From Bacteroidales bacterium (lineage in GTDB: Bacteria > Bacteroidota > Bacteroidia > Bacteroidales > Marinilabiliaceae), in assembly GCA_017539645.1 (NCBI GenBank), contig JAFYCM010000058.1, forward strand, positions 37,224 to 101,223: DNA of 64,000 nucleotides, given 5' to 3'. The notes beneath the pieces are model-generated. The model was not told the origin of the DNA. It saw nothing but the letters and a program-made list of their open reading frames with translations, and did not search any database. Positions 47,798 to 64,000 of the stretch are shown piece by piece. Each line of letters starts with the position of its first letter. The first letter of the stretch is position 1. A program made the translations under genes and the position numbers.

Positions 47798-48766
47798 TTA
47801 GAATCTGATTTTAGCGCCTTTCTTTGCGGATTTGCCGCCGCTACTTTTACTACTCTTGCTGCTCTTGCTACTCTTTGCGCTACTCTTTCCGCCGCCAAGC
47901 TGCCAGTTGTATGAAGCCTTTATGCCAAAGCTCATCTCCGACATCTTATCGGCACACGACTTAGTAACAGAATTTACAGTGACATTAGCCGGAATTGTGG
48001 TTGGATCGCAATCGATGTGGTTAATCTTGCCCCCTTCGAAGTTATTCACCAAACCATAGTTGAAATATGCGCCAAGCATAAGCCAATTGCCAGCCACTTC
48101 CATAGCGTAGCCACCTTCAAAAGCGAGAGACACATTGAATGAAGCACCTTCGAGTTTATCGTTGAAGCTTGTGCCATCTACTTTGCCAAGCGCAAGCGAA
48201 TTCTCTATAGGCATATCGAAATTCACGCCATCGGAAACTTGAGCGGTGACATTCGCCTTCTCGAATGTCTGCTTGTAGTTGGAGATTACTGGAATTCCAA
48301 CACGAGCACCCAAGTTTGCCCAGAAGCATTTGTAAATAGCCGATGCCATAATAGGAACTTCAACAGCTATCTGGCTATTTGTCTCCTCAACATTCGTTGC
48401 ACCAGTTTTATAGGTAATGTTCAACTTTCTACCGTTGTCGTTAGCTTCTAATTTATATTCTTGACAAACTTCCGAAGCAGTCACTTTATTTTGACCGTAA
48501 GCAATAGACAAACCTGAGCGAATACCTATGTATGGTTTCGACTTATCGGAGCGAGGGAAGTAGAATCCGTAGACACCATCTACTGCGCCATTCAACCCCA
48601 ACGAAGCGGTTAAGTCATCGCCTTTTTGCATAAACGAACCACCACCTACTCTCAATCCTGCACCTACAATCTGAAACTTATCCGTGTTGGTGGTCAAATC
48701 TTTCAGCTGTGCGCTCGCCATAGAAGCAAGCGCTAACGATACTATCGATATTATTATCTTTTTCAT
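47798..48766 (-). CDS. Putative outer-membrane beta-barrel protein paired with giant surface protein 1
   Basis: 322 residues. The signal peptide ends at SMASAQ. The mature protein shows repeated amphipathic strands (GAGLRVGGGSFMQ, PYIGIRSGLSIAYGQ, NVSLAFEGGYAMEVAGNWLMLGAYFNYGLVNN) and a last strand MSFGIKASYNWQL. After that comes an unusual Gly/Ser/Lys-rich tail with repeated SSK units, ending KGAKIRF. IAVEVPIMASAIYK and ARVGIPVISNYKQT match LEVPVMAMYKLK and VRLGVPLMKKYKLT in the protein at 59403-60404, so the two are probably distant paralogues. It starts 19 bp after the 2185-aa repeat protein on the same strand. Confidence 0.75.
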   Translation of the reverse strand: MKKIIISIVSLALASMASAQLKDLTTNTDKFQIVGAGLRVGGGSFMQKGDDLTASLGLNGAVDGVYGFYFPRSDKSKPYIGIRSGLSIAYGQNKVTASEVCQEYKLEANDNGRKLNITYKTGATNVEETNSQIAVEVPIMASAIYKCFWANLGARVGIPVISNYKQTFEKANVTAQVSDGVNFDMPIENSLALGKVDGTSFNDKLEGASFNVSLAFEGGYAMEVAGNWLMLGAYFNYGLVNNFEGGKINHIDCDPTTIPANVTVNSVTKSCADKMSEMSFGIKASYNWQLGGGKSSAKSSKSSKSSKSSGGKSAKKGAKIRF

Positions 48767-48785
48767 GAGTATCTATTTTTTCAAC

Positions 48786-51700
48786 TTATTTCACAATATA
48801 CTTAACGCTCTTAGTATAGTTACCAGCCTTGACATTCACGATATAAATACCATCGCTGTCTTCAGCCTCGAATGTTACAACTTGATCACCATTAGTCTTG
48901 ATATTCTTAACCATAGTTCCGTACAAATTGTAAACTCGAATTACAGCATCTTCAGAAGGAAGACCTAAGACACGTATTGTTTGACCATGTCGTGCTTGCG
49001 TAGGAGCAACTGCTATAACCGTCGTATTAGTCAAATCGATAATATTCGATATGATGTACTCAATACCATTTCTTGGCTCAGCAAGTTTGATTACTGCATA
49101 AACTTTAGCATCAACAAACTTAGTCAACACGCTATCACCTGTAAAGTATTTACCTGCTGCCAAAGGAACATCATCTGCACGAGTTCCATCGCACCAATCA
49201 TCTTGTTCGTCAACCACTTTATACCATTCAACCGTAGCAATGCTATCGCTAATGGCCAAATTGTTAACTGTCAAAATCCATTTATCGAATATCACAGAAG
49301 CGGCATTTTCATTTATCTCAGCTTTGCAGCCTTCTATGATAATTTCGGTGGTATCGAACACTGCCTTATAAGTAACATCCTTAGTTACGCCAACTACCAT
49401 TGGATCCCAACCAGCGAATGTAAATTCATACTTAGCAGTAGCCTTCTTAGTAGGATCATCTCCGCGGAATACTGGAACTTCGCCATACTTAAGCGTATCT
49501 GTTTGAAGCATCACAGTGTCGTTCGCGAATGATATTACAAACTTCATTGTGTCAGCCTTAGCCACTTCCATCGAATCGAACTGTGCGTAGTAAGTAGCAT
49601 TTTCTATAGCCTTCACAACTTCAGGCTTCCAACCAGTGAATGCATATACATATGCCTCTGAATTGGCCTTAGTAGGTATTGTAGCGCAAGCTGGCATCTC
49701 ACCCTCTTCTACTTCACCCTCTTGAACTTTCTCATCACCATTCATGAAGGTGATTGTGTATTTATTCCTTATGATAGGAATCTCCTCGAATTGTGCCACA
49801 TAAGTAGCAGGTGCAGTAGCTGGCAAGAATTCAGGTTCCCAACCGATGAACTTGTATTCATAATCTGCGGTAGAAGCTTTTGCAGGTTCTTTGCCTTTGT
49901 ATGCTGGCGTCTCACCGAACTTCACAGAATCCTCGTAAACCACTAACGAGCCATTTACGAATGTCACGATGAAGTATGTCGAGTCAGCTTTGCTTGCTTC
50001 GATAGAGTCGAACTGAGCATAGTAGGTTGCATTCTCTATAGCCTTTACAACTTCTGGCTTCCAACCTTTGAATGCATATACATACTCTTCGGTATTAGCC
50101 TTAGTAGGCATTTTTTCGCAAACTGGCATTTCTCCCTCTTCGACTTCGCTCTCTTGAACCTTCTCATCACCATTAATAAAGGTGATTAAGTATTTAGTCT
50201 TCTCGATTAACGTAGAATCGAAGCGCGCTGTGTAGATAGCATCCGCAGTAGCGTTTACTATATCAGGAGTCCAGCCAGCAAACTTATATGTATAGTTTTC
50301 AGAAGCATTCTTAGTAGGCACACCTTCGTAATAAGGCAACGCTCCAGCAACAACAGAATCTGCACGAAGTATTTCGCCTTCGCTTACAAACGTGATAAGG
50401 TACTTCTGAGCGCCCGCTATCACAGCATCGAAGGTTGCTTCATAGGTCTCGTTTGCATATACAGTATCAATCTCAGGAGTCCAACCAATGAATACGTATG
50501 TGGTACTACCTTCCGCAGCTTTAGTAGGCATAGCACCATTATAAGATGGCATTGTACCAGCCAAGAGCGTATCTACTTGGAGTATATCATCACCATTCTT
50601 GAATGTAATTACATACTTGGCATTAGCAATCTCGGTAGAATCGAACTGTGCGTAGTATGTTGCATCTGCTGTTGCAGCAACAACTTCAGGCATCCAACCT
50701 ACGAATTCATATATATACTCTTGGGTCTTAGCCTTAGTAGGTGTAGTTGCACAAACTGGCATTTCTCCTTCCGCAACTTCAGACTCTTGTACCTTTTCAT
50801 TACCGTTCATGAAGGTGATCAGATACTTGGTCTTCGTAATTTCAGTAGAATCGAACTTAGCTACGTATGCAGCATCGGCAATAACAGTTTCTACTTCAGG
50901 CGTCCAACCTGCGAATGTATATGTATAGTTATCAGTTGCAGCCTTGGCAGGAACAGCACCTGTATATTCAGGCGTTGCGCCATATTCCAAAGTAATTGTC
51001 TGCAACGTATCGGCAGCATTCAAGAAGTATACGTTATACTTATTTACTGTTGTATCGAACACAGCCTCGTAAGTTACGGCTCTGTCTACTGCCACAACGT
51101 CAGGCGACCAACCTTTGAATGTAAAGCTATATTGAGCTGTTGCCGCTCTGATTGGCTCTTCACCTTTGTATACTGGCATTACTCCATATTCCAAAACATC
51201 GGTTTGAAGCGTCTCAGCACCATTGACAAATGCCACTTCGTATGAGTTTGTCGTAGAATCGAACAATGCAACGTAAGTAGCTTCGGTCTTCACTGTATCG
51301 AGAGCAGGAGTCCATTCCTTGAATGTATAGCTATACTGAGCAGTAGGATTCTTTGTAGGCGTTGCTTTCGTGTAGACTGGCATTTCACCATACTTGAATG
51401 GTGTATTCTGAACAGTGTCTACGTCACTCACAAAGTATACATTGTATTCTACAAGCGAAGAGTCATACACTGCTGTATATTCCGACGCTTTATACACCTT
51501 CACTTGAACTGAGTGATCCCAACCTTTGAACTTGTAATCATACTTTTCTGTAGAAGTTCTTGTAGGCGTTGCAGGCACTACAACCGAGCTTCCATAGTTA
51601 TAAAGTTCAGAAGAGATCGTCGTACCATCGTAGTCGTAGAACGACACGCGATATACATTTTCAGACGTTGAATATTGAGCAACGTATGTAACGCTCTTAG

Positions 51701-54700
51701 TCACAGTCGTCGACAATGGCGTAGTACCATCGAACCAGCCAACAAATGTGTAAGTATTTTGTGCATTCGACTCTTTTACAGGAGCCTCTGGAACGTCAAT
51801 AATATCGCCATAAGCGTAATACTTCGCACTTATAGTATCACCCTTCGTACTACGGAATACAACTAAGTAGTTCGTGTTTGCCACAGAATCGAATTGAGCC
51901 TCATAAGTAGCAGGAGCAGTAACCTCAGCTATAGCAGGCAACCACTCTTTGAATGTATATATATACTTCGCGGATGAAGCTTTAGTTGGCGTTGCACCTT
52001 TGTATACAGGCATTTCGCCATATTCTAATTCTTCAGTTTGCAATGTTGTAGTACCATTAACAAAGGAAACCACATACGTATTTGCAGATTCTTCGAACTG
52101 AGCTACATAAGAGGCATCGCCGGTCACAGCAGCAAGCTCAGGCGACCAACCATTGAAGGCATATTTATGCTGTGTATCAGCAGGTTTCGTCGGCGTTGTT
52201 CCATCATAACTTGGCATAAGGCCGTATTCAACATTCTCGTCCTTCTCAAGTACTGTTACCCCATCTTCATCATAGAACGTTACTGTGTATTTATTCAACG
52301 TTCCGGAATAAGTCGCGGTATATGTTGCGTCGGCAGTAACAGGTTCAATTGCAGGAGTCCAACCAGCGAATTCATAAGTATATTGAGCATCTGCAGCCTT
52401 AGTCGGATTAGCAGGAGTTTCAATATCAGCTACCAAAGTACCATAGTCGTATGACGTTGCATCTTTGAGTATGGTCGTGCCATCTTCATCAACAAACGTC
52501 ACTTGATACTGTCGCAATGTTGGTGTATATGTTGCTGTGTAGGTTGCATCACCATAAACATCTTCTATAGCAACATCCCAGCCAGCAAACTCATAGGTAT
52601 ACTGATCATCAGCTGCTTTGACAGGATCCGTTGGCAACACAATATCAGATGCAGAAGTACCGAAATCGTAAGATGCAGCATCCAACACCGTTGTGCCGTC
52701 AGCATCGACAAACGTAACTTTATATTTTCTCAACGTTGCTGCATACGTAGCAGTATATGTAGCATTGCGCGTAACATCAGCAATTACTGGGCTCCAACCA
52801 GTGAATTCGTAGGTATACTGAGCATCTGCTTCTTTCGTCGGATCAGCAGGTTTTACAACATCAGCAGCCAACGTTCCAGATGTATATAATGTCGATTCTT
52901 TCAACACTGTAATTTCATCATCATCGACAAACTCTATAGAATACTGGTTAGGAGTTTTGGAAGATACCGTTGTTTCTATATTACCCAAACGCACACGGGT
53001 AACGTCTTTGTTGGAGTTAATTGTCAACGCCTTACCGTTTCTACCAGTAGAAACATCAAAATTGGCAGATGTAATATCAGACAAGAGTGTACCATCTTCA
53101 TACACATTCAGGCGCAAATCACCAAGTTTCACGCCGATACCACTACTCTTAATATTGCCATAATCCAAAATACCATATTCTACATTCTTCTCTCCAGTGG
53201 CAATGTAGAACCAAACATCACAATTCGGATCTACATTATCATTGCTCTCATCATACACAACAGCCTTTATTACCGTAGGATAGCGTTCTGAGACAGCATC
53301 CGTTTCACCCTCTGTCTGTGTTGCCGCCCCTATATATGGAACATTTGCATAGAATTGATCCGACATTATACCTGCAGCAATTTTTGCTTCATACAATGAA
53401 TTAATCATCAAATTGCCCGAAGGTGTATTATACGGATAATGTTCTTTAGCCTCAGATCCATTATAGCCTTCTGTTATATATTGGTCATACTGGCTTTGTG
53501 TAAGGAAATAGGCAACAAATACGTTACGGTTACCAACGCCGTTAGGATTATCTACATCATCTACATAGAAACGTACATATGGCCAAGAATCGCATTTAGC
53601 GGTTGTTGTTCCAACGTATTTATTGCGAACATTGCGATATGGAGTCAGATAATCTTTACTTACAGTGACGTTAGGAGTAGCATCTTGCGCCAAAGTTGTT
53701 AATTGAGCTGGCGACATAGGCTGCTGCAGATAACCATACTGCATTGGGCCATCGTATGTGGTAAAACCGGTCGCTACATTATAGATAGTTTGCGATGCCG
53801 TACCATAAAAACTTTGAGTAGTTACATTGCGCACATCATCCACATCAAACACGCCACCTTCAGCCATTGCACGCCAATCGATCGGTGCTTGATACGGATT
53901 ACTGATATACAATGCACTTCCTATAATAGAATATGTACCATTGCTATTCTCATATTGATCGGTAGCTACATAATTATATGACGACGCATCGTTTATTTCA
54001 CTATGAGAAAAATGCAAAGCAGAAGTCGATGATTCTCTTTCATCTGTACCTGATTGTTTATAAACAACCAATGGCGTATTAGTATTTATATAATTTGGAG
54101 ATGTAGGATCTGAAGTGCGAAGCGCCGCACCTTCTGTCGCATTTGCAAAAGATTTTATAGCATCATAGTTTGATAAAGACAAATCTTGAGCCAAAGAATA
54201 GAAATCAACATTAGACACTGATTTGCCAGCACCTGCACTAATAGCAGGTTTTACAAAGCCATAATTATTATTATTCCATTCAAGACCTCTTGGTGCTATT
54301 CTATAATTCGAGTTTTCGGTTGCCGTTTTTGTCGGAATCGCAAAATATTGCCATTGTGCATACGAAATATTAGAACTATTCTTGACGAAAGTTGAACCAA
54401 AATATCTCGCTCTTTCAAAGTTGCTGTCGTTATCTATAAGGCGGGTAAAGTGAGATTCACCAGAAGTGTAAGTTCCTTTATTTATCAACCAACCAATTTG
54501 TTTTGTACCACCTTTTTCAGGGCCAAGAAACCATGCATCATTAGTTACGGTAAGTTTACCCGCATTTGAAACTACAATACCAGCAGACAAGCAAAAATTA
54601 TCTCCGCTAGCTGTATACTCATTACCACCTTCTACTATCAGTTGATTCACCTTTAGTTCATTATTCACAGTGAGAACTGCTGGCGCTTTTATAATAACTG

Positions 54701-55343
54701 CCTCAGCATTTGTCAAAGAAGAACCAATCGCACTTGAATATGAATTTTTTTCTACTATCGCACATTCTACTACTTCATATTCAAAACTTGAATAATACTT
54801 CGTCACATCTGTTCCATCATTTACGTTATAAACGAATGGAAAATCCAAATGGACTGTCACACCAGAAGGGAAGTATGACACTTCCCATGGTTCAATCGTC
54901 CAGGAATTATTATACTCACCATTTCCGCTCTCGCGATACACCGTAAATTTGACTTCTACTCTATCGCCATTTGCGTTATAATACCACAGATGTGCATTAT
55001 TATTAATATATGCAGTACCAGTATTAATAACCGCATTTACTTTAGAATAAAACGGATAAGCTCCATCAGGATAACCGGCTTGACTTGTTGTCAAACCATG
55101 ACCATGGAGTTCGGTATCATCTTCTGAAGGATCATAAAAATATGTACCATCATCAGCTTTTATTCTAAATATCGTCTTAGGAAGGATTTTCGTACCATCA
55201 GAAGACAAATATTGTTCTCTTCCGCTTTCAAATGTCAAGTCGGTAAATTGGGCTACCGAAGGAAGAGAAACTACGCACAACAGTAATGCTACAATAAAGC
55301 GAGCATAGCACCGCCCACATAATCGTACACTAATTTTATTCAT
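48786..55343 (-). CDS. Giant T9SS-type surface protein with 17 InlB/Flg_new-type repeats
   Basis: 2185 residues from ATG 55343, which starts a signal peptide (ending PSVAQ); ATGs at 55373 and 55433 are longer options. Residues about 33-790 form a Tyr/Asn/Ser-rich N-terminal region without recognised repeats. About 796-2000 hold 17 Listeria-Bacteroides-type repeats of about 65-70 residues, each with YxVTFxxxD, a Pro/Thr/Lys linker, YxYxFxGW and TYxAxFD. The C-terminal 75 residues (IRVLGLPSEDAVIRVYNLYG, then DGIYIVNVKAGNYTKSVKYIV) form a type A T9SS sorting domain. It is likely a surface adhesin. The barrel gene follows 19 bp later. Ligand unknown. Confidence 0.88.
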   Translation of the reverse strand: MNKISVRLCGRCYARFIVALLLCVVSLPSVAQFTDLTFESGREQYLSSDGTKILPKTIFRIKADDGTYFYDPSEDDTELHGHGLTTSQAGYPDGAYPFYSKVNAVINTGTAYINNNAHLWYYNANGDRVEVKFTVYRESGNGEYNNSWTIEPWEVSYFPSGVTVHLDFPFVYNVNDGTDVTKYYSSFEYEVVECAIVEKNSYSSAIGSSLTNAEAVIIKAPAVLTVNNELKVNQLIVEGGNEYTASGDNFCLSAGIVVSNAGKLTVTNDAWFLGPEKGGTKQIGWLINKGTYTSGESHFTRLIDNDSNFERARYFGSTFVKNSSNISYAQWQYFAIPTKTATENSNYRIAPRGLEWNNNNYGFVKPAISAGAGKSVSNVDFYSLAQDLSLSNYDAIKSFANATEGAALRTSDPTSPNYINTNTPLVVYKQSGTDERESSTSALHFSHSEINDASSYNYVATDQYENSNGTYSIIGSALYISNPYQAPIDWRAMAEGGVFDVDDVRNVTTQSFYGTASQTIYNVATGFTTYDGPMQYGYLQQPMSPAQLTTLAQDATPNVTVSKDYLTPYRNVRNKYVGTTTAKCDSWPYVRFYVDDVDNPNGVGNRNVFVAYFLTQSQYDQYITEGYNGSEAKEHYPYNTPSGNLMINSLYEAKIAAGIMSDQFYANVPYIGAATQTEGETDAVSERYPTVIKAVVYDESNDNVDPNCDVWFYIATGEKNVEYGILDYGNIKSSGIGVKLGDLRLNVYEDGTLLSDITSANFDVSTGRNGKALTINSNKDVTRVRLGNIETTVSSKTPNQYSIEFVDDDEITVLKESTLYTSGTLAADVVKPADPTKEADAQYTYEFTGWSPVIADVTRNATYTATYAATLRKYKVTFVDADGTTVLDAASYDFGTSASDIVLPTDPVKAADDQYTYEFAGWDVAIEDVYGDATYTATYTPTLRQYQVTFVDEDGTTILKDATSYDYGTLVADIETPANPTKAADAQYTYEFAGWTPAIEPVTADATYTATYSGTLNKYTVTFYDEDGVTVLEKDENVEYGLMPSYDGTTPTKPADTQHKYAFNGWSPELAAVTGDASYVAQFEESANTYVVSFVNGTTTLQTEELEYGEMPVYKGATPTKASSAKYIYTFKEWLPAIAEVTAPATYEAQFDSVANTNYLVVFRSTKGDTISAKYYAYGDIIDVPEAPVKESNAQNTYTFVGWFDGTTPLSTTVTKSVTYVAQYSTSENVYRVSFYDYDGTTISSELYNYGSSVVVPATPTRTSTEKYDYKFKGWDHSVQVKVYKASEYTAVYDSSLVEYNVYFVSDVDTVQNTPFKYGEMPVYTKATPTKNPTAQYSYTFKEWTPALDTVKTEATYVALFDSTTNSYEVAFVNGAETLQTDVLEYGVMPVYKGEEPIRAATAQYSFTFKGWSPDVVAVDRAVTYEAVFDTTVNKYNVYFLNAADTLQTITLEYGATPEYTGAVPAKAATDNYTYTFAGWTPEVETVIADAAYVAKFDSTEITKTKYLITFMNGNEKVQESEVAEGEMPVCATTPTKAKTQEYIYEFVGWMPEVVAATADATYYAQFDSTEIANAKYVITFKNGDDILQVDTLLAGTMPSYNGAMPTKAAEGSTTYVFIGWTPEIDTVYANETYEATFDAVIAGAQKYLITFVSEGEILRADSVVAGALPYYEGVPTKNASENYTYKFAGWTPDIVNATADAIYTARFDSTLIEKTKYLITFINGDEKVQESEVEEGEMPVCEKMPTKANTEEYVYAFKGWKPEVVKAIENATYYAQFDSIEASKADSTYFIVTFVNGSLVVYEDSVKFGETPAYKGKEPAKASTADYEYKFIGWEPEFLPATAPATYVAQFEEIPIIRNKYTITFMNGDEKVQEGEVEEGEMPACATIPTKANSEAYVYAFTGWKPEVVKAIENATYYAQFDSMEVAKADTMKFVISFANDTVMLQTDTLKYGEVPVFRGDDPTKKATAKYEFTFAGWDPMVVGVTKDVTYKAVFDTTEIIIEGCKAEINENAASVIFDKWILTVNNLAISDSIATVEWYKVVDEQDDWCDGTRADDVPLAAGKYFTGDSVLTKFVDAKVYAVIKLAEPRNGIEYIISNIIDLTNTTVIAVAPTQARHGQTIRVLGLPSEDAVIRVYNLYGTMVKNIKTNGDQVVTFEAEDSDGIYIVNVKAGNYTKSVKYIVK

Positions 55344-55415
55344 AGACTTATCTGTTTTATAATTATTATTCATATCAGTTTGGCGAGGGGGTAAATTATC
55401 CTCGGCAAGGGGGTC

Positions 55416-55459
55416 TTTGCAAAAATCGTACACTTTCGTACTAACTTTTGCAAAAATCG
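55416..55459. repeat. Direct repeat upstream of giant surface protein 1
   Basis: TTTGCAAAAATCG occurs at 55416-55428 and again at 55447-55459, 31 bp apart centre to centre (three helical turns), with CGTAC words between. It lies about 75-115 bp upstream of the start codon and could be a pair of operator half-sites. Confidence 0.5.
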
Positions 55460-55516
55460 GCAGTAAATGTACAAATTTTATTTACGCGACAACATAAAAT
55501 GCAATTTATGAGCACT

Positions 55517-55975
55517 CTACAACTCTCTTTCTATTATTGCATCACAAATTTTTTCGAGCATATCTATCACCAATGTAAATCCAGCAGCACCTCCATAATA
55601 TGGATCTGGCACATCTTCTTCTGACGAGACATACTGCGCAGCTAACGCTACCCTCGCCGTAGCATCAGCCGGTTGTCGTTTGTTTATATCGCGCACGTTC
55701 GAACTATCCATGCCTACTATAACATCGAAATTATAGAAATCGTCAGTGGTTATTGGTCTACTAACACCCTCGATATGATAGCCACGTTGAAATGCGAACG
55801 ATCGCATACGAGAATCGGCAGGCTCTCCTTGATGATAACCAATAATGCCAGCAGAATCAATTACGACAGAATCGGAAAGTCCGCGCTCAGCAACTTTCGC
55901 ACGCATAATGGTCTCAGCCATTGGCGAACGGCATATATTACCAAGACAGACAAAAAGAATTCTAAACTTACTCAT
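55517..55975 (-). CDS. Low-molecular-weight protein-tyrosine phosphatase
   Basis: 152 residues. The P-loop comes near the N-terminus as VCLGNICRSPMAE (CxxxxxRS), and the general-acid loop is VPDPYYGG near residue 130. It removes phosphate from tyrosine residues. In Gram-negative bacteria such enzymes often pair with tyrosine kinases controlling polysaccharide export, but no kinase lies in this window. The gene stands between the giant surface protein gene and tRNA-Arg. Confidence 0.94.
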   Translation of the reverse strand: MSKFRILFVCLGNICRSPMAETIMRAKVAERGLSDSVVIDSAGIIGYHQGEPADSRMRSFAFQRGYHIEGVSRPITTDDFYNFDVIVGMDSSNVRDINKRQPADATARVALAAQYVSSEEDVPDPYYGGAAGFTLVIDMLEKICDAIIEREL

Positions 55976-55979
55976 AGAT

Positions 55980-56018
55980 AAAAAGAAAAGACCTGAAAGT
56001 CATTAACTATCAGGTCTT
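55980..56018 (-). terminator. Intrinsic terminator downstream of tRNA-Arg
   Basis: On the minus strand AAGACCTGA/TCAGGTCTT forms a 9-bp perfect stem followed by a T-rich tail (TTCTTTTT). It lies 12 bp after the tRNA 3' end and just before the phosphatase start codon. Confidence 0.85.
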
Positions 56019-56029
56019 GGATTTTATTG

Positions 56030-56103
56030 TGATACCGGAGGGGTTCGAACCCCCAATCTTCTGATCCGTAGTCAGAGGCATTATCCAATTGTGCTACGGT
56101 ACC
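56030..56103 (-). tRNA. tRNA-Arg (anticodon ACG)
   Basis: 74 nt on the minus strand. The acceptor is GGTACCG/CGGTATC with discriminator A, the anticodon stem is TCTGA/TCAGA with loop CTACGGA (anticodon ACG, normally edited to ICG and reading CGU/CGC/CGA), and the T arm has GGTTCGAACCC. CCA is not encoded. A strong terminator follows. Confidence 0.95.
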
Positions 56104-56236
56104 ATCCTTGCTCAAAAGCGATGCAAAAGTAGCGAGTTTTTTATTATGTGCAACGACCAAAATGCTAAAAAATCTTTATTTGTCGTAGATTCATATTTAT
56201 TCATCTACAAAAAACACAAGTTTTGTCTCTACTATG

Positions 56237-57142
56237 CTACCATTGCGTGATAGAATCTTGGCGTTTATTCACCAATTCTTCAATAATACCATCGGAAAGT
56301 CCCAAGGCTGGCACTTCTATAGTATCTGCGCCAATGGCATCGGCTATAATTAGGAAAATCTGTGCTGCAGGAACAATTACATCAGCGCGGTCGGGTTTTA
56401 GATCGAATGCCTCAGCTCGCTGGGCGATAGTGAGTTTGTTGAGTCGGTTATAAATATTACGCAGTGCACTAACATCCATTCGGCGCTCGATAACCTCTTC
56501 GTCATTGTGATTGGTAAGCGAGAAGAGTTTATTTATGTTGCCGCCCGCCCCCACGATAGATACACCGCCATATAAGCAACATGTAGCTTGCAAGTCGAGG
56601 CGAAGTTGGCTAACGACCGTTTCGTCGAAGATACCGTTAATCATACGCACGGTACCTATACCGTAGGATTGCGTAAAAAGCGTATTGCCATCACAGATGA
56701 GGCTTATCTCGGTACTACCACCGCCTACGTCGACAAAAAGAAGATTACTCTTATTTACGCGCCGCCAATTGACGTTGCGAACGATAGCTGCCTCCTCTTT
56801 ACCACTGATAAGTTCAATACGTACACCAGTACGAGCATAAATATCATTTAGCACCGACTGCCCGTTGGTAGCTTCGCGCATAGCTGCCGTGGCACATCCG
56901 CGAAAATGTTCGGGTTTGATATCATATAGGCCCATCACTAAAGAGAAGGCTTTGATGAGCGTACAAAGGTCATCGGCTTTTTTCTTGGATATGGAGCCCG
57001 TGGTGAACACTTCTTGACCGAGACGCAGCGGCAGACGCATGAGCGCCACTTTGCCAAGTTGCGTCGACGTAGGCTTATCTTGCCGCTTGACTAGCAATCG
57101 CACGGCATTCGAACCAATGTCTATGGCAGCGAAGTATTCCAT
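56237..57142 (-). CDS. Ppx/GppA-family phosphatase (exopolyphosphatase/pppGpp hydrolase type)
   Basis: 301 residues of the ASKHA fold: EYFAAIDIGSNAVRLLV (phosphate 1), LFVDVGGGSTEISLI (phosphate 2) and a late GLSDGIIEEL. This is the short two-lobe form without the C-terminal HD domain found in E. coli Ppx/GppA. It would hydrolyse polyphosphate or pppGpp in the cytosol; the preferred substrate cannot be told. It follows murA by 12 bp on the same strand and probably shares its transcript. Confidence 0.9.
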   Translation of the reverse strand: MEYFAAIDIGSNAVRLLVKRQDKPTSTQLGKVALMRLPLRLGQEVFTTGSISKKKADDLCTLIKAFSLVMGLYDIKPEHFRGCATAAMREATNGQSVLNDIYARTGVRIELISGKEEAAIVRNVNWRRVNKSNLLFVDVGGGSTEISLICDGNTLFTQSYGIGTVRMINGIFDETVVSQLRLDLQATCCLYGGVSIVGAGGNINKLFSLTNHNDEEVIERRMDVSALRNIYNRLNKLTIAQRAEAFDLKPDRADVIVPAAQIFLIIADAIGADTIEVPALGLSDGIIEELVNKRQDSITQW

Positions 57143-57154
57143 ATATATACATAT

Positions 57155-58459
57155 TTACTGACGACGAATAGACGCACCAAGCGCGTTCAATCGCTGGTCG
57201 ATATACTGATAACCACGGTCAATCTGTTCGATATTATGTATGGTAGACGTACCGTTGGCCGATAGTGCGGCAATGAGCAGAGCCACGCCAGCACGAATAT
57301 CAGGCGAGGTCATAGTTGTGCCGCGCAACTGATTCATACGATCAAGACCGATAACTGTTGCACGATGTGGGTCACAAAGTATGATTTGTGCTCCCATATC
57401 TATGAGTTTATCAACGAAGAACAATCGGCTCTCAAACATCTTTTGATGTATAAGTACACAGCCGCGAGCCTGCGTAGCCACCACAAGAAAGACGCTCAGC
57501 AAGTCAGGCGTGAGACCAGGCCAAGGCGCATCGGAGATGGTCATAATAGAGCCATCGATGAACGAGTCGATGGTGTAGTGGTCTTGTGCTGGAATATGTA
57601 TGTCGTCACCCTTCTTCTCGATTGCGATGCCCATACGTTCAAAGGCAAAAGGAATGATGCCAAGGTGATGCAAACCAGCGTTACGAATGGTTATGTCACC
57701 ACCCGTCATTGCTGCCATACCAATGAATGAGCCAACCTCAATCATATCAGGCAAAACTCGGTGTTCGCAACCCGACAGACTGTCAACGCCAGTGATCTTT
57801 AGTAAGTTCGAGCCAATACCTTCGATTTTTGCACCCATCGACACGAGCATACGCGTGAGTTGCTGTATGTATGGTTCGCAAGCCGCATTGTATATAGTCG
57901 TCTCACCAGGCGTAAGTACAGCTGCCATAATAATATTAGCCGTACCAGTTACCGAAGCCTCATCGAGGAGCATATAGCAGCCCTTCATATTGTTGCCGCG
58001 CACGGAGTAGAAAACGTCGTTAGCATCGAACGAAAATTCGGCGCCAAGTTTTTTGAATCCGTAGAAGTGCGTATCGAGACGTCGACGACCAATCTTATCA
58101 CCACCGGGTTTCGGGAAATGCGCTACGCCATATCGTGCGAGAAGCGGTCCCATAATCATTATTGAACCACGAAGCGATGAAGCTCTCTGCTTGAAGTCGT
58201 CGGTAAGGAGATAGTCGAGATTAATGTTGGCTGCTTGCAAATGACAGCGGTGCGGGCTTTCACGACGAACGCCAACGCCCATTGCTGCAAGCAGATTTAT
58301 AAGGTTATTGACATCAACGATGTCTGGAATATTATCAATGACAACCTCTTCAGAGGTCAACAAGGTGGCGCATAACACTTGCAGTGCCTCATTCTTAGCA
58401 CCTTGTGGATCGATAGAACCCGAGAGTGGGCGACCGCCTTCAATGACAAAAGATGACAA
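57155..58459 (-). CDS. murA: UDP-N-acetylglucosamine 1-carboxyvinyltransferase
   Basis: First committed enzyme of peptidoglycan synthesis, adding enolpyruvate from PEP to UDP-GlcNAc. 434 residues with GAKNEALQVLCA (K22, N23), RGSIMIMGPLLARYG and LDTHFYGFKKLGAEF. In the catalytic loop the Cys that fosfomycin alkylates (E. coli C115, GGCAIG) is Asp here: PKPGGDKIGRRR, D121. That swap is known to give fosfomycin insensitivity in other bacteria. It lies between the DUF4290 gene (27 bp upstream) and ppx/gppA (12 bp downstream). Confidence 0.96.
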   Translation of the reverse strand: MSSFVIEGGRPLSGSIDPQGAKNEALQVLCATLLTSEEVVIDNIPDIVDVNNLINLLAAMGVGVRRESPHRCHLQAANINLDYLLTDDFKQRASSLRGSIMIMGPLLARYGVAHFPKPGGDKIGRRRLDTHFYGFKKLGAEFSFDANDVFYSVRGNNMKGCYMLLDEASVTGTANIIMAAVLTPGETTIYNAACEPYIQQLTRMLVSMGAKIEGIGSNLLKITGVDSLSGCEHRVLPDMIEVGSFIGMAAMTGGDITIRNAGLHHLGIIPFAFERMGIAIEKKGDDIHIPAQDHYTIDSFIDGSIMTISDAPWPGLTPDLLSVFLVVATQARGCVLIHQKMFESRLFFVDKLIDMGAQIILCDPHRATVIGLDRMNQLRGTTMTSPDIRAGVALLIAALSANGTSTIHNIEQIDRGYQYIDQRLNALGASIRRQ

Positions 58460-58486
58460 TTTGAAATGTATTTATATGGTAATGAA

Positions 58487-59155
58487 TCAATATCTATTGC
58501 GACGCTGATTGCGGTTCTTCTTGCCGCCGCCCTGCTGCTGACGTTGCTGCTGTTGCTGCTTACGACTGCCAGCGCCATTATTGTTGTCGGGCGCAGTGAG
58601 ATTCGGGCGAAAGTTTGATGTAGTGACACCTTCATCGATAAAAATTTCACCATCGGTCATAGCCTGCAAATCGCCGAATATACGATCGTCGGTGGAGATG
58701 TCATCTTTATTGAGCATAAGTATGCGACGTTTCATGCTGCAAGCAATACTCTGAATGGCGCTCTGCTGCTCGTAGAGGTCCTCCATACCTACAGTAGCTT
58801 TGGCCATACGCTCAATGATGCTACCGAAATGGCGAAAACGGATGCGGTGGCAATTATAATCTAAGCGGTCGGGCTTGCGCATAATCTTCTCTGGCGTAGG
58901 CATCGGGTACGGAGAATCGATGTCGAGCTTGAAATTCGACATAATTGCCAAATGGTCCCAGAGTTTGTGGCGGGAATCCTCGGTATCACGAAGTTCGGGA
59001 AAGAGGTTTCCCATAACATCGATGATAGTACGAGCACAGCGGTTGCGCTCCTCGCGGTCTTCTATAGTGCACGCGTGAGCCACCATACGTTGGATATTGC
59101 GTCCATATTCGGGCATGTAGAGCGGACCTCGCGTTGAATTATAATCTTTGAGCAT
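58487..59155 (-). CDS. DUF4290 family protein
   Basis: 222 residues starting MLKDYNSTRGPLYMPEYGRN, the typical opening of the Bacteroidota-specific DUF4290 family, followed by the helical RTIIDVMGNLFPELRDTEDSRHKLWDHLAIMS. The C-terminus is a Gln/Gly/Arg/Lys-rich low-complexity tail (KQQQQQRQQQGGGKKNRNQ) that may bind nucleic acid or be disordered. No enzymatic motif is seen. The constant position ahead of murA suggests an envelope or growth role, but function is unknown. Confidence 0.85.
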   Translation of the reverse strand: MLKDYNSTRGPLYMPEYGRNIQRMVAHACTIEDREERNRCARTIIDVMGNLFPELRDTEDSRHKLWDHLAIMSNFKLDIDSPYPMPTPEKIMRKPDRLDYNCHRIRFRHFGSIIERMAKATVGMEDLYEQQSAIQSIACSMKRRILMLNKDDISTDDRIFGDLQAMTDGEIFIDEGVTTSNFRPNLTAPDNNNGAGSRKQQQQQRQQQGGGKKNRNQRRNRY

Positions 59156-59248
59156 GTCTTTCGTATTGTTTCAGGCGGCTAATTTAGTATAAGATTGCAA
59201 AAACACCGAACGATTAATACGGTTTACGGAATGCGCAGATGTTTCTAT

Positions 59249-59278
59249 AATTACGAATTCCTAATTAAGAGTTACGAG
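59249..59278. repeat. Short ACGAATT/GTTACGAG repeat tract
   Basis: TTACGAATTCC and AAGAGTTACGAG words resemble those after pflA (8846-8878). Intergenic, no gene seen in 59156-59402. Confidence 0.35.
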
Positions 59279-59304
59279 AGCGTCTATTGGGAGAGCATAT
59301 AGCA

Positions 59305-59340
59305 CAAAAAAGGACCGTCAACAATGTAACAGTCCTTTTG
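59305..59340 (-). terminator. Terminator at the end of the adhesin/barrel operon 2
   Basis: AAGGAC/GTCCTT forms a 6-bp stem with a run of six A upstream (T on the minus strand) and TTTT on the other side, so it can act in both directions. It lies 62 bp after the barrel gene stop. Confidence 0.75.
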
Positions 59341-59402
59341 TATGTAGACGTAAATGCAATGCCAAACGTAGATTTTGCACAACGTTTTGGCAACACTATT
59401 TT

Positions 59403-60404
59403 TTAGAACATCGACCTTACGCTTCGTTTACTACGGGCATTAACCTTACGAGCACTGCCCTTTTTGAACATCGACTGAACACGGACGAAGTCTAAACAAA
59501 GTTGAACTTTGGCGCCAGCACCCATCAAATGAGCATTATCGACAAGTTGCGAACCAAGTACGCCATTATAGCTTTGATCATCAACGCTGACAATGCCAGA
59601 GCTACTTGACTTTGCGACGTTAGTAATACAATAACTAAAATAGAGACCGAAATAAATCGTCTTGTTTCGCGTCCAATGGTAGTTGAAGCCAGCATCAAGA
59701 CAAAGGTTACATGTCACTGGATTCAAATTGCTCTTGCCAGTTTTCTTGTCAGATTTAGTAGTGAAGCCATGTTGTTCAAGATTATTATACTCTACGTTTG
59801 TCGATTCGAAATAACCTCGAGTCTCATACATACCATCAGTGAGTTTGTATTTTTTCATCAGAGGCACACCGAGGCGTACGCCTGCGCCAACCGTAAAATC
59901 CCACATCTCAGTCATATTCTTCAACTTGTACATCGCCATAACAGGGACCTCGAGTTGCACAAGGTGCTGACGTTCTGATACAGTATTGAAGTATGTTCGG
60001 TAGGTAAAAGTTTCAGGTTCAGGTTGCTGCACATTGTCGAACTCTTTGTCGTAGGCATGTACCAACCTATCAGTAACGGCAACTTCTTCGAGAGCGCTAA
60101 ATGTGGTTGCAGCACCATAATACGAAGCTCCGATACCAGCACAATAGCCCATTCCACTATAGAAGAATTGCTGGAAGCAGACATTGAAGGTACCACCCGG
60201 TTTCATATTTTTCTGTCCATCACCCTTGACATCATATGTATAAGTATAGAGACCTCCACCCCAATCGAACGTGAGGAACATATTCTCAAGTTCTTGCGTA
60301 GTGTACTTCTTTTTCTTTGTCTTTCGTTTAGGCGCAGCATCGAGGTCACACGGAGCGACAATGGCCAAAATCAAGAGCATTGCAAGGCATTTCAACCAGC
60401 TCAT
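59403..60404 (-). CDS. Putative outer-membrane beta-barrel protein paired with giant surface protein 2
   Basis: 333 residues from ATG 60404 (MSWLKCLAMLLILAIV, signal peptide); ATG 60434 adds ten residues. After a basic linker (APKRKTKKKK) come barrel-like strands (FLTFDWGGGLYTYTYDV, CAGIGASYYGAATTF, FTVGAGVRLGVPLMKKYKL, LCLDAGFNYHWTRN, IYFGLYFSYCITNVA). The end is Arg/Lys/Ser-rich, KKGSARKVNARSKRSVRSMF. The EVPVMAMYK and GVRLGVPLMKKYKLT stretches match the barrel at 47798-48766. It lies 115 bp downstream of giant surface protein 2, separated by a strong hairpin. Function is inferred from position only. Confidence 0.72.
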   Translation of the reverse strand: MSWLKCLAMLLILAIVAPCDLDAAPKRKTKKKKYTTQELENMFLTFDWGGGLYTYTYDVKGDGQKNMKPGGTFNVCFQQFFYSGMGYCAGIGASYYGAATTFSALEEVAVTDRLVHAYDKEFDNVQQPEPETFTYRTYFNTVSERQHLVQLEVPVMAMYKLKNMTEMWDFTVGAGVRLGVPLMKKYKLTDGMYETRGYFESTNVEYNNLEQHGFTTKSDKKTGKSNLNPVTCNLCLDAGFNYHWTRNKTIYFGLYFSYCITNVAKSSSSGIVSVDDQSYNGVLGSQLVDNAHLMGAGAKVQLCLDFVRVQSMFKKGSARKVNARSKRSVRSMF

Positions 60405-60481
60405 AGCGTTATATTTTATATATGTAGTATTCATGGTTCTGAGTGTTTAGTTGTGTAATTAGTCGATTTCCTTTTTTATGT

Positions 60482-60509
60482 CTGCCGCTGGTTTTGCTGC
60501 CAGCGGCAG
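60482..60509. promoter_or_regulatory. Perfect hairpin between giant surface protein 2 and the barrel gene
   Basis: CTGCCGCTGG and CCAGCGGCAG form a GC-rich 10-bp perfect stem with an 8-nt loop, 10 bp after the stop of the giant gene. On the minus strand it is followed by A-rich sequence rather than a U-run, so it fits an mRNA 3'-stabilising or pausing hairpin that lets the two genes be expressed at different levels. Confidence 0.65.
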
Positions 60510-60519
60510 AACTATTTAT

Positions 60520-63500
60520 TTATCGTTTTATTACGCTAACCACATCGTTGCCAATTCTGATTACGTAGGTTCCTTGCGGCAAGCCAGACAGGTCGACCTT
60601 GTCTTTCGTCGCACTTTCGGCGGTTCGTACTATCACCGTCTGACCACTTTCGTTGACGACAGTTATCTCATCGCCGACATCCCATGTACCGCCCTTCACG
60701 TTAACTACGCCTGACGATGGGTTCGGGTATGCCACAAGCGATGACGCTGCCACCATACCTCTATCATCGGTATACTTAGGACATGAAGTGTAAACCTCGC
60801 CTTCGGTGGTAACAACTACCAAGTAGTATGTACCGGTGTTGTAGAGAGAGACGCCCTTATTATCATAGAACATCTTGTTCTCTGCAATCGGCGTTGATTC
60901 TCCCTCTCGATACCATGTGAACGAATCGTTAAGCGTTAGCTCTTTGCCGAAGTATTCATCCGAATTGATAACAGAAAGGACGTCATCCCACATGATACGA
61001 ATGAATCTATGGCGAATCTCGTAGCTGATATGATACGTCAAGGTATCCTCTATCAACGATACTGCGACATCCACAATGCCTTTGCTTGGTATGCCCTCAT
61101 CAGGCAATGTGAACGTATTCAAGGTATCGGACTGCATCTTCACGCCGTTTACGAAGAATGTGTAGTTCACATAATTCATAATCTGATTACCAGTAAATAC
61201 TTTGCCATTGCAGTTAGCGAAGTTGCCTTGCGGAGTAGTAATTTCTACCACAATCGACTCATCGTTTTCGCAAGTTATGAATGGCTTGTAGTCACTTGGC
61301 ATATTCCACGTGATGAACGGCTTAGAATCGATACAATCGATATCAATATCTGCCTTCCACTTAGCAGTCAGGTTGAGGTTACCAACAGAGCCTGAAGGTA
61401 TCACGGTTATCTGATTACCTAATTCGTCGAACCAGCCGAGGAATATGTAACCAGAGCGTGTGATATTCTCAAGCGTGATGTCGTCATCGATTATCGAGTA
61501 GAGCGTACGGTTGTTGTTTTCTACGCCATCAGGTACGCCATTGTAAGTAATGGTGTAAGTAGAAACGTTGAACAAGGTGATAACCTCAACATCGCTCGCT
61601 GGCATCTCGAAGGTATTATCCTCGCTGATGGTGATGGTCGCAGGCTTGGTAGTCCAGCCAACGAACTCGTAGCCTTCACGATAGATAGGCGTCAAAGTAA
61701 CCACAGTGCCCATAGTCGCAGCAGCCACATTGCTCGTGGTGAATTGGTCGGTAGTTACGGTGTATATACCAGCCTTCCACTGAGCGTAGAGGGTAACTAC
61801 ACCATTGGCCTCAGTAGTGAGGTTGCTTACCACAGCGTGATCAATGTATGCACTACCTGAGCCATCAGCGGCGGTATTCCAGCCATTGAAGGTGAAACCA
61901 AGACGCGTATAAGCGTTGTTGTTGAGGAATACCGATTCATCGAACACAACTTGCTGACGAGCCATTGAACCACCAGTATTGCCGTTACCGTCGAATACTA
62001 TGTAGTATGCATTAGCCGTCCAAACAGCGTAGAGGCTGATGGTTGCGTCAGGCGTATTAGTGATATTCACTACTGTCTGCTCATCGATATACTCTACAGC
62101 GCCGTTTATCGATGTTGACCAGCCCAAGAAGGTGTGACCATCGATAACGAAGCCGTTCTTACTTAGAGTCTTAGCCTCGTCATAGGTAAACTTCTGACTT
62201 TCGGTTGTGCCGGTTGCCTTAGCATTATTAGCATAGAACACAACGGTGTATGTAATCGGTGTCCACTGCGCGTAGAGCTTGATTTCGCCATTGTTATCAC
62301 CAACGAGGTTCTTCACAGCTTGTTTATTCTCGTAGCGAGCGCCCTTGCCATCTGCTGAGGTTGCCCAGCCAGCGAATGTGTAGCCGTCGCGAGTGAATGC
62401 GTTAGGTGTCAAGTTAGCTTCAATGCCATAGGTCATGATTTCGTCGTCCATCTTACCTGTGCCATCGTTAGCCTTGAATACTATGCGGTATGTATTAGCC
62501 GTCCACTGAGCGTAGAGGCTGACAATTTCGCCATCCTCAGATGCGAGATTCTTCACTACTTCGCCGTCGGCATAGTCAGTAGACGTTCCGGCTTCGTTGC
62601 GGTTCCAGCCTGTGAAGGTATAGCCCGAGCGAGCGAATACGTTAGTATTCAGCGGTTCGGCATCGTCGAAGCGGAAGAGTTGATTTGCCATCGAGCCAGA
62701 AACAGGATCACCCTCGGCATTGCTATCGAATGCTACATAGTAGTCGACTGGAGCCCATTGTGCGTAGAGCGTAACAGCCTCGCCAGCAGTAATATTCGAT
62801 ACATATTCTTCATCGGCATACGACTTACCAGTACCATCAGGCTTGAGATTCCAAGCGGTGAACTTGTAGCCAGTCTTAGTGAACTTGCACTTCGACAGAT
62901 AATCCCACTTATCGTAGTTGATCTGCTGAGTCGGCATAGAGCCTTTACCACCATTGTTATTGAAGGTAATTATGAAGCCTGCAATCTCCCATTGAGCATA
63001 GAGGGTGATAGTGCCTTCGGTAGCAAGGTTCTTCTGCGTTGAGCCCTGATAATAGGTATCACCAGATCCATCAGGTTGGGTATTCCAGCTAATGAACTCA
63101 TAACCAGCCTTAGTGAAGCCCGTATTGCTGAGTATTGTAATGTCTACATCGTAGGTAGCATCTTGGTCGACCGTAGTACCTACACCGCCATTGTTTACAT
63201 ATTCAATAGTATATGTATTAGGCGTAAAGTTCGCGGTGACATCGATGTCGCTTGCCGGCATCACAAAGGTGTTGGTGAAGGTTACCGAAACTTCAGGATT
63301 GGTAGTCCAACTTTCGAATGTGTAGCCAGGCTTAGTATCTGCGGTGAGCGACACAGTAGTCTCGTATGTAGCTGTCGAGAAGTTCGACGTAGCATTATGA
63401 GTGGTGATGATGTATTCGGTGAGCTTGTAGTTAGCTGTCACCTCAACATTACCCGTACCTACAGTTATGGTTGTCTCGTTGCTTGTCACACTGGTTATTT

Positions 63501-64000
63501 GTGCGCCAGTGCCACTTACGAGCGTCCAACCAGTGAACTCGTAGCCAATAGCAGGATTGTTTGCTGTAATAGTTACAAGCTCGTTCATGTTAGCCGTAGT
63601 CTTGTTGGCTGTACCATTATTTACGGTAATCGTATAGTCGACAAGTCGATAGTTAGCACGGACGTTCACATTGCTTGTACCTACACGGAGAATAGTGCTA
63701 CTTGCATTTGCATTGTTCATAGAGGCACCTTCACCGTTGGTAATTTCCCAATAGTCGAACTCGTAACCATCGGCAGGAGCATTAGCAGTGATTGTTACCG
63801 CCTCGCCCATTGGAGCTTCATTCTTATCTGCCGTACCATTGTCAACGGTAATTATGTATTGTATAGCTACGTAATTAGCTTTCACGGTAACGTCGGAAGC
63901 TGGCATAGTGAACTTACCGCCGTTAACAATCACTTCGTTTCCGTTAGCATCGGTAACTGTCCAACCTGTGAAGTTGAAGCCAGGCTTAGCATCGTGGTCG
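60520..64000 (-). CDS. Giant T9SS-type surface protein with mixed InlB-type repeats (5' end outside window)
   Basis: Partial gene: the frame stays open to the window edge, giving at least 1158 residues. The visible part has three repeats of the divergent InlB type (ITVNNGTANKTTANMNE, GYEFTGW, VEVTANY), six or more classical Flg_new-type repeats (FTKAGYEFISWNTQPDGSG, LYAQW) and mixed ones, 11 full units plus a partial one at the edge. A region without repeats follows (about 61350-60760). The end is a type A T9SS sorting domain (SLVAYPNPSSGVVNVKGG, GLPQGTYVIRIGNDVVSVIKR). It is probably a surface adhesin. The barrel gene follows on the same strand. Confidence 0.87.
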   Translation of the reverse strand, partial: DHDAKPGFNFTGWTVTDANGNEVIVNGGKFTMPASDVTVKANYVAIQYIITVDNGTADKNEAPMGEAVTITANAPADGYEFDYWEITNGEGASMNNANASSTILRVGTSNVNVRANYRLVDYTITVNNGTANKTTANMNELVTITANNPAIGYEFTGWTLVSGTGAQITSVTSNETTITVGTGNVEVTANYKLTEYIITTHNATSNFSTATYETTVSLTADTKPGYTFESWTTNPEVSVTFTNTFVMPASDIDVTANFTPNTYTIEYVNNGGVGTTVDQDATYDVDITILSNTGFTKAGYEFISWNTQPDGSGDTYYQGSTQKNLATEGTITLYAQWEIAGFIITFNNNGGKGSMPTQQINYDKWDYLSKCKFTKTGYKFTAWNLKPDGTGKSYADEEYVSNITAGEAVTLYAQWAPVDYYVAFDSNAEGDPVSGSMANQLFRFDDAEPLNTNVFARSGYTFTGWNRNEAGTSTDYADGEVVKNLASEDGEIVSLYAQWTANTYRIVFKANDGTGKMDDEIMTYGIEANLTPNAFTRDGYTFAGWATSADGKGARYENKQAVKNLVGDNNGEIKLYAQWTPITYTVVFYANNAKATGTTESQKFTYDEAKTLSKNGFVIDGHTFLGWSTSINGAVEYIDEQTVVNITNTPDATISLYAVWTANAYYIVFDGNGNTGGSMARQQVVFDESVFLNNNAYTRLGFTFNGWNTAADGSGSAYIDHAVVSNLTTEANGVVTLYAQWKAGIYTVTTDQFTTSNVAAATMGTVVTLTPIYREGYEFVGWTTKPATITISEDNTFEMPASDVEVITLFNVSTYTITYNGVPDGVENNNRTLYSIIDDDITLENITRSGYIFLGWFDELGNQITVIPSGSVGNLNLTAKWKADIDIDCIDSKPFITWNMPSDYKPFITCENDESIVVEITTPQGNFANCNGKVFTGNQIMNYVNYTFFVNGVKMQSDTLNTFTLPDEGIPSKGIVDVAVSLIEDTLTYHISYEIRHRFIRIMWDDVLSVINSDEYFGKELTLNDSFTWYREGESTPIAENKMFYDNKGVSLYNTGTYYLVVVTTEGEVYTSCPKYTDDRGMVAASSLVAYPNPSSGVVNVKGGTWDVGDEITVVNESGQTVIVRTAESATKDKVDLSGLPQGTYVIRIGNDVVSVIKR

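Follow-up and report, generated by a model that had tools for sequence, protein, structure and literature searches.

How the type IX secretion system (T9SS) decides which surface proteins stay on the cell, are released or are tied to the cell wall is an open question. In the current model, one general carrier serves type A sorting signals, and type B signals have private carriers. According to published work, type A C-terminal domains (CTDs) are all recognised by PorV (PMC12618676), and every type B CTD has its own PorP/SprF carrier, the gene of which is commonly adjacent to that of the substrate (PMC12618676, PMC9143113, PMC10202324, PMC10994853). The closest described systems are SprB–SprF of Flavobacterium johnsoniae and PG1035–PorP of P. 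gingivalis, in which a T9SS substrate likewise has an outer-membrane barrel as its partner; the barrel gene of SprB lies directly downstream, an arrangement reviewed as common among type B genes. PorV and PorQ–PorZ also involve outer-membrane barrels handling type A-like CTDs, and the CTD of PorZ is described as retained and binding PorQ (PMC10202324).

Here we analyse a 64,000-nucleotide stretch (the window) of a Bacteroidales genome from the Marinilabiliaceae (assembly GCA_017539645.1, contig JAFYCM010000058.1, positions 37,224 to 101,223), in whose final 16 kb two giant T9SS adhesin genes are each followed by the gene of an outer-membrane barrel. These cassettes have the gene order of SprB–SprF and parallel that pair, but are made of other parts: unlike in SprB–SprF and PG1035–PorP, the CTD is of type A with an immunoglobulin-like (Ig-like) domain in front of it, and unlike SprF and PorP, the barrel is of the PF13568 type. 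The two-class model of the T9SS has no place for such a partner. The adhesin–barrel pairing is real and widespread, occurring in many Bacteroidales. From sequence comparisons we consider it likely (probability about 0.62) that the barrel is a dedicated outer-membrane partner that binds the Ig–CTD module and holds a subset of type A adhesins on the surface.

Two giant adhesin genes are each followed by a barrel gene

All four genes lie on the reverse strand, in the order adhesin 2, barrel 2, intervening genes, adhesin 1, barrel 1. Adhesin 1 (P0003, 48786..55433) has at most 2215 aa, with a likely start Met at 55343, and consists of an N-terminal region, 17 repeats of about 70 aa, an Ig-like pre-CTD domain and a type A CTD, the last two within its last 150 aa (48789..49238). 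After a gap of 19 bp (48767..48785) follows barrel 1 (P0001, 47798..48766), a protein of 322 aa with a signal-peptide-like start and a Lys/Ser-rich, basic C-tail whose last residues are KIRF; it is of the PF13568 type but too divergent for Pfam (no match at E ≤ 1). Adhesin 2 (P0004, 60520..64000) is represented by its C-terminal 1159 aa, with Flg_new/InlB-type repeats followed by the Ig-like pre-CTD domain and type A CTD (last 150 aa, 60523..60972). This gene is incomplete because its contig stops at the window end (C33:101223), and the window probably holds the last ~11% of it; its ortholog in another genome (G055, C24:24211-55428; loci L268 and L269) forms a single frame of 10,405 aa and shares 77% identity with the part in the window. 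There, both cassettes lie on one contig and one strand with their order kept, about 26 kb separating barrel 2 from barrel 1. Barrel 2 (P0002, 59403..60434), 85 bp downstream of adhesin 2, has 343 aa (333 aa if Met at 60404 is used), matches PF13568 (OMP_b-brl_2) at 36 bits against a Pfam cut-off of 27 and has a basic C-tail ending in SVRSMF.

The first-pass annotation, made from the DNA letters and their open reading frames, had placed these genes correctly, its gene starts being later in-frame Met codons. Its count of 17 repeats in adhesin 1 agrees with a pattern count (spacing 68–74 aa); in adhesin 2, a Pfam scan marks 11 Flg_new (PF09479) and seven Flg_new_2 (PF18998) stretches. The C-termini that it had called T9SS-like match the type A family TIGR04183 above its cut-off of 23 bits, adhesin 1 with 28.6 and adhesin 2 with 36.1, and adhesin 2 also passes the Pfam model PF18962 (38.8 bits, cut-off 27). 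Neither protein matches the type B family TIGR04131 at E ≤ 1; the same NCBIfam library does detect TIGR04131 upstream of PorP genes.

The pairing is conserved across the Bacteroidales

As the first-pass annotation required of its reading, the adjacency of adhesin and barrel is conserved in related genomes. Among 71 surveyed genomes from the family, 24 encode a relative of barrel 2 and nine one of barrel 1 (the window's own counted). Beyond the window pair, the analysis covered 42 family-level relatives, two of them from the window's genome, and a CTD gene lies directly upstream on the same strand in 39/42 (gaps of -38 to 152 bp). An order-level draw gave a barrel match at E ≤ 1e-8 in 93/393 genomes and 62/206 genera, part of which are generic outer-membrane protein (OMP) matches only. 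From all order-level matches a subset of 86 further relatives was picked down the ranking, 85 from other families and one (L171) from the window's own; L174 yielded no frame, L193 and L197 stood outside the analysis, and L124, L125 and L127 duplicate loci of the first set. Pairing with a CTD gene was found for 48/51 relatives at E < 1e-25, 10/14 between 1e-25 and 1e-15, and 5/21 between 1e-15 and 1e-8. The weakest class contains its own control: proteins shorter than 300 aa, the size of ordinary OMPs, were paired in 1/15 cases, and longer ones in 4/6. Outside the first set, 53 genomes were confirmed to have paired copies.

Across the phylum, 395 drawn genomes yielded 15 with a match at E ≤ 1e-15, the window's own included; of the other 14, 13 belong to one genus outside the order. 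Outside the order, a gene with both CTD and Ig-like domain adjoins the barrel at 15/17 loci; L227 is without a CTD gene, and at L239 the barrel frame was not called. The 93 genomes with a barrel match include none of 20 listed SprA-negative ones.

The upstream tails were scanned against NCBIfam in two sets. Set A2 holds both window tails and 40 of the 41 upstream tails (L101 had no tail, and L112, a short frame without CTD, is omitted); TIGR04183 matches 40/42 of its rows, which flatters the pairing rate, the proper rate being the 39/42 given above. TIGR04131 is not among the nine NCBIfam families that these 42 tails match. In set A5, the 75 of 86 further loci that have a same-strand upstream frame of at least 100 aa, TIGR04183 matches 64/75 rows.

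Within the window's own genome, ten proteins match PF13568. Three are paired barrels, the model missing the fourth (barrel 1); unlike these, the seven others (208–289 aa) have no CTD gene upstream, as judged by eye. Chance adjacency is rejected in view of the drop in pairing among weaker relatives and of these unpaired OMPs. The short, operon-typical gaps might also reflect expression linkage only, two surface proteins being needed under the same condition. We consider this improbable, as such linkage predicts neither one barrel family behind CTD genes in 53 further genomes nor the Ig–CTD module and partner-matched covariation described below. The pairing is without description in the literature searched, which was mostly open-access and does not establish its absence in print; in the parts cited, PMC9950754 concerns a different tandem pair and PMC11004935 contains nothing on adhesin–barrel pairing.

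The barrels are PF13568-like

The two window barrels had been proposed to be paralogs, and their homology is detected both by BLASTP (E 4e-7, in an alignment spanning the EVPxMA ... GxRxGxPxxxxYKxT block) and by comparison of subfamily profiles (99.7% over 279 columns). Unpaired PF13568-type OMPs are matched by the subfamily profiles of the window barrels at 98.3–99.4% (98.3% for barrel 1); by profile, PF13568/PF13505 OMP_b-brl proteins, many of which carry an OmpA fusion, appear to be the same barrel family (99.4%). The 41 rows of set A1 are the two window barrels plus 39 of the 42 relatives (omitted are L112 and, at L117 and L123, the second copy), OmpA-fused barrels being trimmed to the barrel part. 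A Pfam scan of the 41 barrels found PF13568 in 23, PF13505 in 22 and PF11751 (PorP_SprF) in none, and PorV and PorQ are absent from the four NCBIfam families matched at E ≤ 0.01. Among solved structures, Opa proteins (E 0.013) are the only relatives of the barrels at E ≤ 0.1; a strand count gave 15 candidate stretches including the signal peptide, which is too crude to fix the strand number.

Against four PorP/SprF proteins, the A1 profile reached a probability of 13.1%, and a joint barrel profile against eight such proteins reached 34.6% over 30 columns. Against these eight, out-of-family barrels gave 65.9% in a stretch of 29 columns located at the signal peptide; ordinary PF13568 OMPs gave 83.4% over 95 columns. 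The barrels are PF13568-like, and their profiles give no confident detection of kinship to PorP/SprF; since ordinary PF13568 OMPs reach 83.4%, the two groups may share a very remote common origin. The first-pass description of the system as analogous to SprB–SprF but sequence-unrelated stands as far as confident kinship goes.

If the barrels were divergent PorP/SprF proteins, the cassettes would simply be the known type B pair. The same layout, the similar size and the 83.4% of ordinary OMPs speak for this, but it is largely contradicted and very improbable: PF11751 matches 0/41 barrels, the profile values stay at 13.1% and 34.6%, the CTDs are of type A, and real PorP/SprF genes stand behind TIGR04131 genes in the same and in sister genomes. 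As far as profiles reach, this identity is rejected. Four PorP/SprF genes lie elsewhere in the window's genome, none at these cassettes. Three of them follow a TIGR04131-matching gene (41.9, 35.0 and 24.0 bits; two reach the cut-off of 35) and the fourth sits behind a topoisomerase gene. In sister genomes, giant TIGR04131 adhesins (38.1 and 35.3 bits) are followed by a PF11751 gene and then a PD40 gene; one of the two PD40 genes carries an OmpA domain. Because PorP/SprF genes behind TIGR04131 genes occur in these genomes, type B and barrel-paired type A cassettes coexist side by side. At four loci (L281, L282, L283 and L273), Ig-like domains of the same kind lie inside the PorP/PD40-linked giant adhesin or in the frame preceding it.

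The window cassettes had also been described as duplicated about 4.0 kb apart. Paralogy holds, but it is old: the barrels are 18% identical in A1, the repeats differ between the adhesins and the nearest paralog of barrel 2 (73% identity) is on another contig (C36), so that recent tandem duplication is rejected. Unlike the window pair, the tandem cassettes at L117 and L123 (G061 and G063) are recent duplications, lying about 10 kb from each other and encoding barrels that are the same or almost the same in sequence. A plasmid search for copies of barrel 2 found none at E 1e-3. Unusual frames were seen at L187 and L195, where distant barrels lie inside frames of 1069 and 792 aa, and on G139:C727, where one frame has two separate barrel matches.

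An Ig-like domain precedes the CTD of barrel-paired adhesins

In front of the CTD, the alignment of the upstream tails covers an Ig-like domain in which a Trp-Tyr is near-invariant. Models of the CTD and of the Ig-like domain were built from A2 minus L099; set A3 comprises 30 of the 42 rows of A2. A whole-genome search found the Ig-like domain at E < 1e-6 only in the four barrel-paired adhesins, of which adhesin 1 is the weakest (E 3e-7); the next match, in a 7475-aa frame, has E 0.003. The genome contains 18 TIGR04183 matches (three below cut-off), and a barrel of this kind lies next to four only. One of the 18 is PorU (NCBIfam), followed by a PorV-like gene, and another sits within a longer frame. 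On the tails of the other frames with a CTD match, the Ig model reached at most 5.8 bits; for L024, whose CTD match lies within a longer frame, coverage comes from the whole-genome search and not from the tail scan. The barrel had been suggested to be a partner specific for repeat adhesins. What its pairing tracks is the Ig-like domain plus type A CTD, not repeats as such.

Fifteen genomes of the genus contain 42 Ig matches, which we divided by hand into groups of 30, 3, 4 and 5. The 30 are terminal, with a CTD and an adjoining barrel; the three are taken up below; the four (L277, L278, L279 and L280) end within ~400 bp of a contig end, the assembly breaks hiding what lies downstream; and the five lie within giant frames. 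In four of the five cases a PorP/SprF-like gene comes further on, and the two such genes that were checked are both PF11751. What is special about the Ig-like domain is its position, not its type.

Barrels and adhesin tails covary

Distances between barrels correlate with distances between the adhesin tails (r 0.79 over 104 pairs). When adhesins were swapped among paralogs within a genome (17 genomes, 46 pairs), the mean correlation was 0.49 and the maximum 0.67, with 0/1000 swaps reaching the observed value. Of 169 quartets in which barrel orthology is clear, 160 have agreeing tails. This covariation supports binding between barrel and adhesin, with which it is consistent, without proving it.

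Many paired barrels carry an OmpA domain

Among long paired barrels of other families, 25/42 contain an OmpA domain (PF00691), and seven long barrels scanned singly all contain it (7/7), two of which are unpaired (L099 and L112). In set A8 (42 tails), the retrieved stretch ends inside those of L192 and L194. A peptidoglycan link has been proposed for type B systems, where PorE would provide the connection to the cell wall (part of PMC12618676), and we propose one for the present barrels through the OmpA fusion; an OmpA-fused barrel looks like PorP and PorE combined in one protein.

The window barrels themselves have no OmpA domain in a Pfam scan. In F. johnsoniae, the normal connection of SprF to the gliding track is described as requiring a Cys-X-Cys tail (PMC12635249); unlike SprF, neither window barrel has this mark, with no Cys in its last 25 residues. 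Their tails are basic, and a net tail charge of at least +4 was found in 35/56 short paired barrels vs 1/16 short unpaired ones. A few of the paired copies are identical or nearly so. As a mark of paired barrels, we consider the basic C-tail suggestive only. The C-terminal motif [IV][KR]S[IM] was rejected as a general tail signal, being present in only 7/56 short paired barrels.

Possible role of the barrels

We propose that each cassette encodes a giant T9SS adhesin together with its own outer-membrane partner. The adhesin has repeats followed by a two-part end module, the Ig-like domain and the type A CTD, and the small PF13568-type barrel from the next gene would bind this module at the outer membrane. 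Two routes to this state can be envisaged. First, the barrel may act as a dedicated carrier, taking the adhesin from the SprA translocon in place of PorV. Second, it may be a surface anchor that receives the adhesin after PorV-dependent export. On the periplasmic side, the fused OmpA domain would tie many of the barrels to the wall, as perhaps would the basic C-tail in others, including both window barrels. Binding, retention, a carrier role and wall attachment are all properties that we infer for the barrels. A type A adhesin with a private barrel would either add a carrier class to the T9SS or reveal a post-export anchor, and would assign a likely function to barrels whose only matches are to generic outer-membrane families. 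Matched natural pairs for specificity tests are at hand, four in the window's genome alone.

The first route, the stronger form of our proposal, has the barrel replace PorV at the translocon as SprF serves SprB. It draws on the gene order shared with type B adhesins and PorP/SprF, on the presence of one partner per adhesin and on the covariation; given that no PorV or PorQ family is among the NCBIfam matches of the 41 barrels and that this barrel type may be too small for docking, we consider it possible but doubtful. On a replacement of PorV at SprA, the barrel family counsels caution and the one-to-one pairing speaks in favour. We tentatively raise, at similarly low confidence, a third class of T9SS substrate, in which giant adhesins with an Ig-like domain and type A CTD would bypass PorV, each having a PF13568-type barrel of its own that extracts it, holds it permanently and often has a built-in peptidoglycan anchor. 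If this were true, the rule that type A uses PorV and type B uses dedicated carriers would fail for widespread Bacteroidales surface proteins.

The adhesins might instead follow the ordinary type A route, in which PorV carries the protein and PorU cleaves off the CTD and attaches the protein to lipopolysaccharide, the barrel being an accessory without contact to the CTD. The TIGR04183 matches fit this route, as do the rule that type A substrates go to PorV (stated in the cited parts of PMC12618676 and PMC12635249) and the presence in the window's genome of PorU (493 bits) with an adjoining PorV-like gene (181 bits over its first part). All type A substrates are described as clients of PorV; the present adhesins each adjoin a barrel of another family. 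Barrels were seen at only four of the 18 TIGR04183 matches, those with the Ig-like domain, and the pairs remain matched among paralogs of one genome, which both speak against this route; we regard it as unlikely. The PorV-like frame behind PorU (L028, G000:C53) seems to shift part-way, or the frame calling cuts it.

Several observations weigh against a dedicated partner that binds and holds the adhesins. Since the genome has PorU and a PorV-like gene, the general PorV route is available to these proteins, and the PF13568/Opa-type appearance of the barrels makes docking on SprA uncertain. Covariation alone is not proof of binding because neighbouring genes are co-inherited. Three of the 42 family-level relatives (L099, L101 and L112) and 3/51 of the strong further barrels (E < 1e-25) lack an upstream CTD gene, and three of the 42 genus-level Ig matches are terminal with a CTD and have no barrel. 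The Ig-like domain is not exclusive, occurring also inside type B adhesins, and resembles generic bacterial Ig domains, its best solved relatives being phage tail Ig proteins. Adhesin 1 falls below the PF18962 cut-off (18.0 bits against 27), and the OmpA match is missing in 17/42 long paired barrels. The paired barrels do not form a single clean clade, with 11 label changes against a shuffled mean of 28 and starred branches forcing at least three (L187, L195 and identical rows were omitted from this test). Finally, adhesin 2 and barrel 2 may be expressed in unequal amounts, as a strong hairpin separates their genes.

Intergenic regions and neighbouring genes

This hairpin (60481..60510, reverse strand) lies in the 85-bp gap of cassette 2, whose whole-gap fold has -22.4 kcal/mol. 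No T-run follows it on the coding strand, so it is not a T-tailed terminator on that strand; the stem is the same in the SIG108 ortholog and absent from the C36 paralog. It may lower or stabilise the expression of barrel 2. The 19-bp gap of cassette 1 contains no terminator-like site, and one lies directly behind barrel 1 (47779-47751). Between the cassettes, the reverse strand carries genes with Pfam matches to DUF4290, EPSP synthase and Ppx/GppA, a tRNA-Arg and a low-molecular-weight phosphatase gene.

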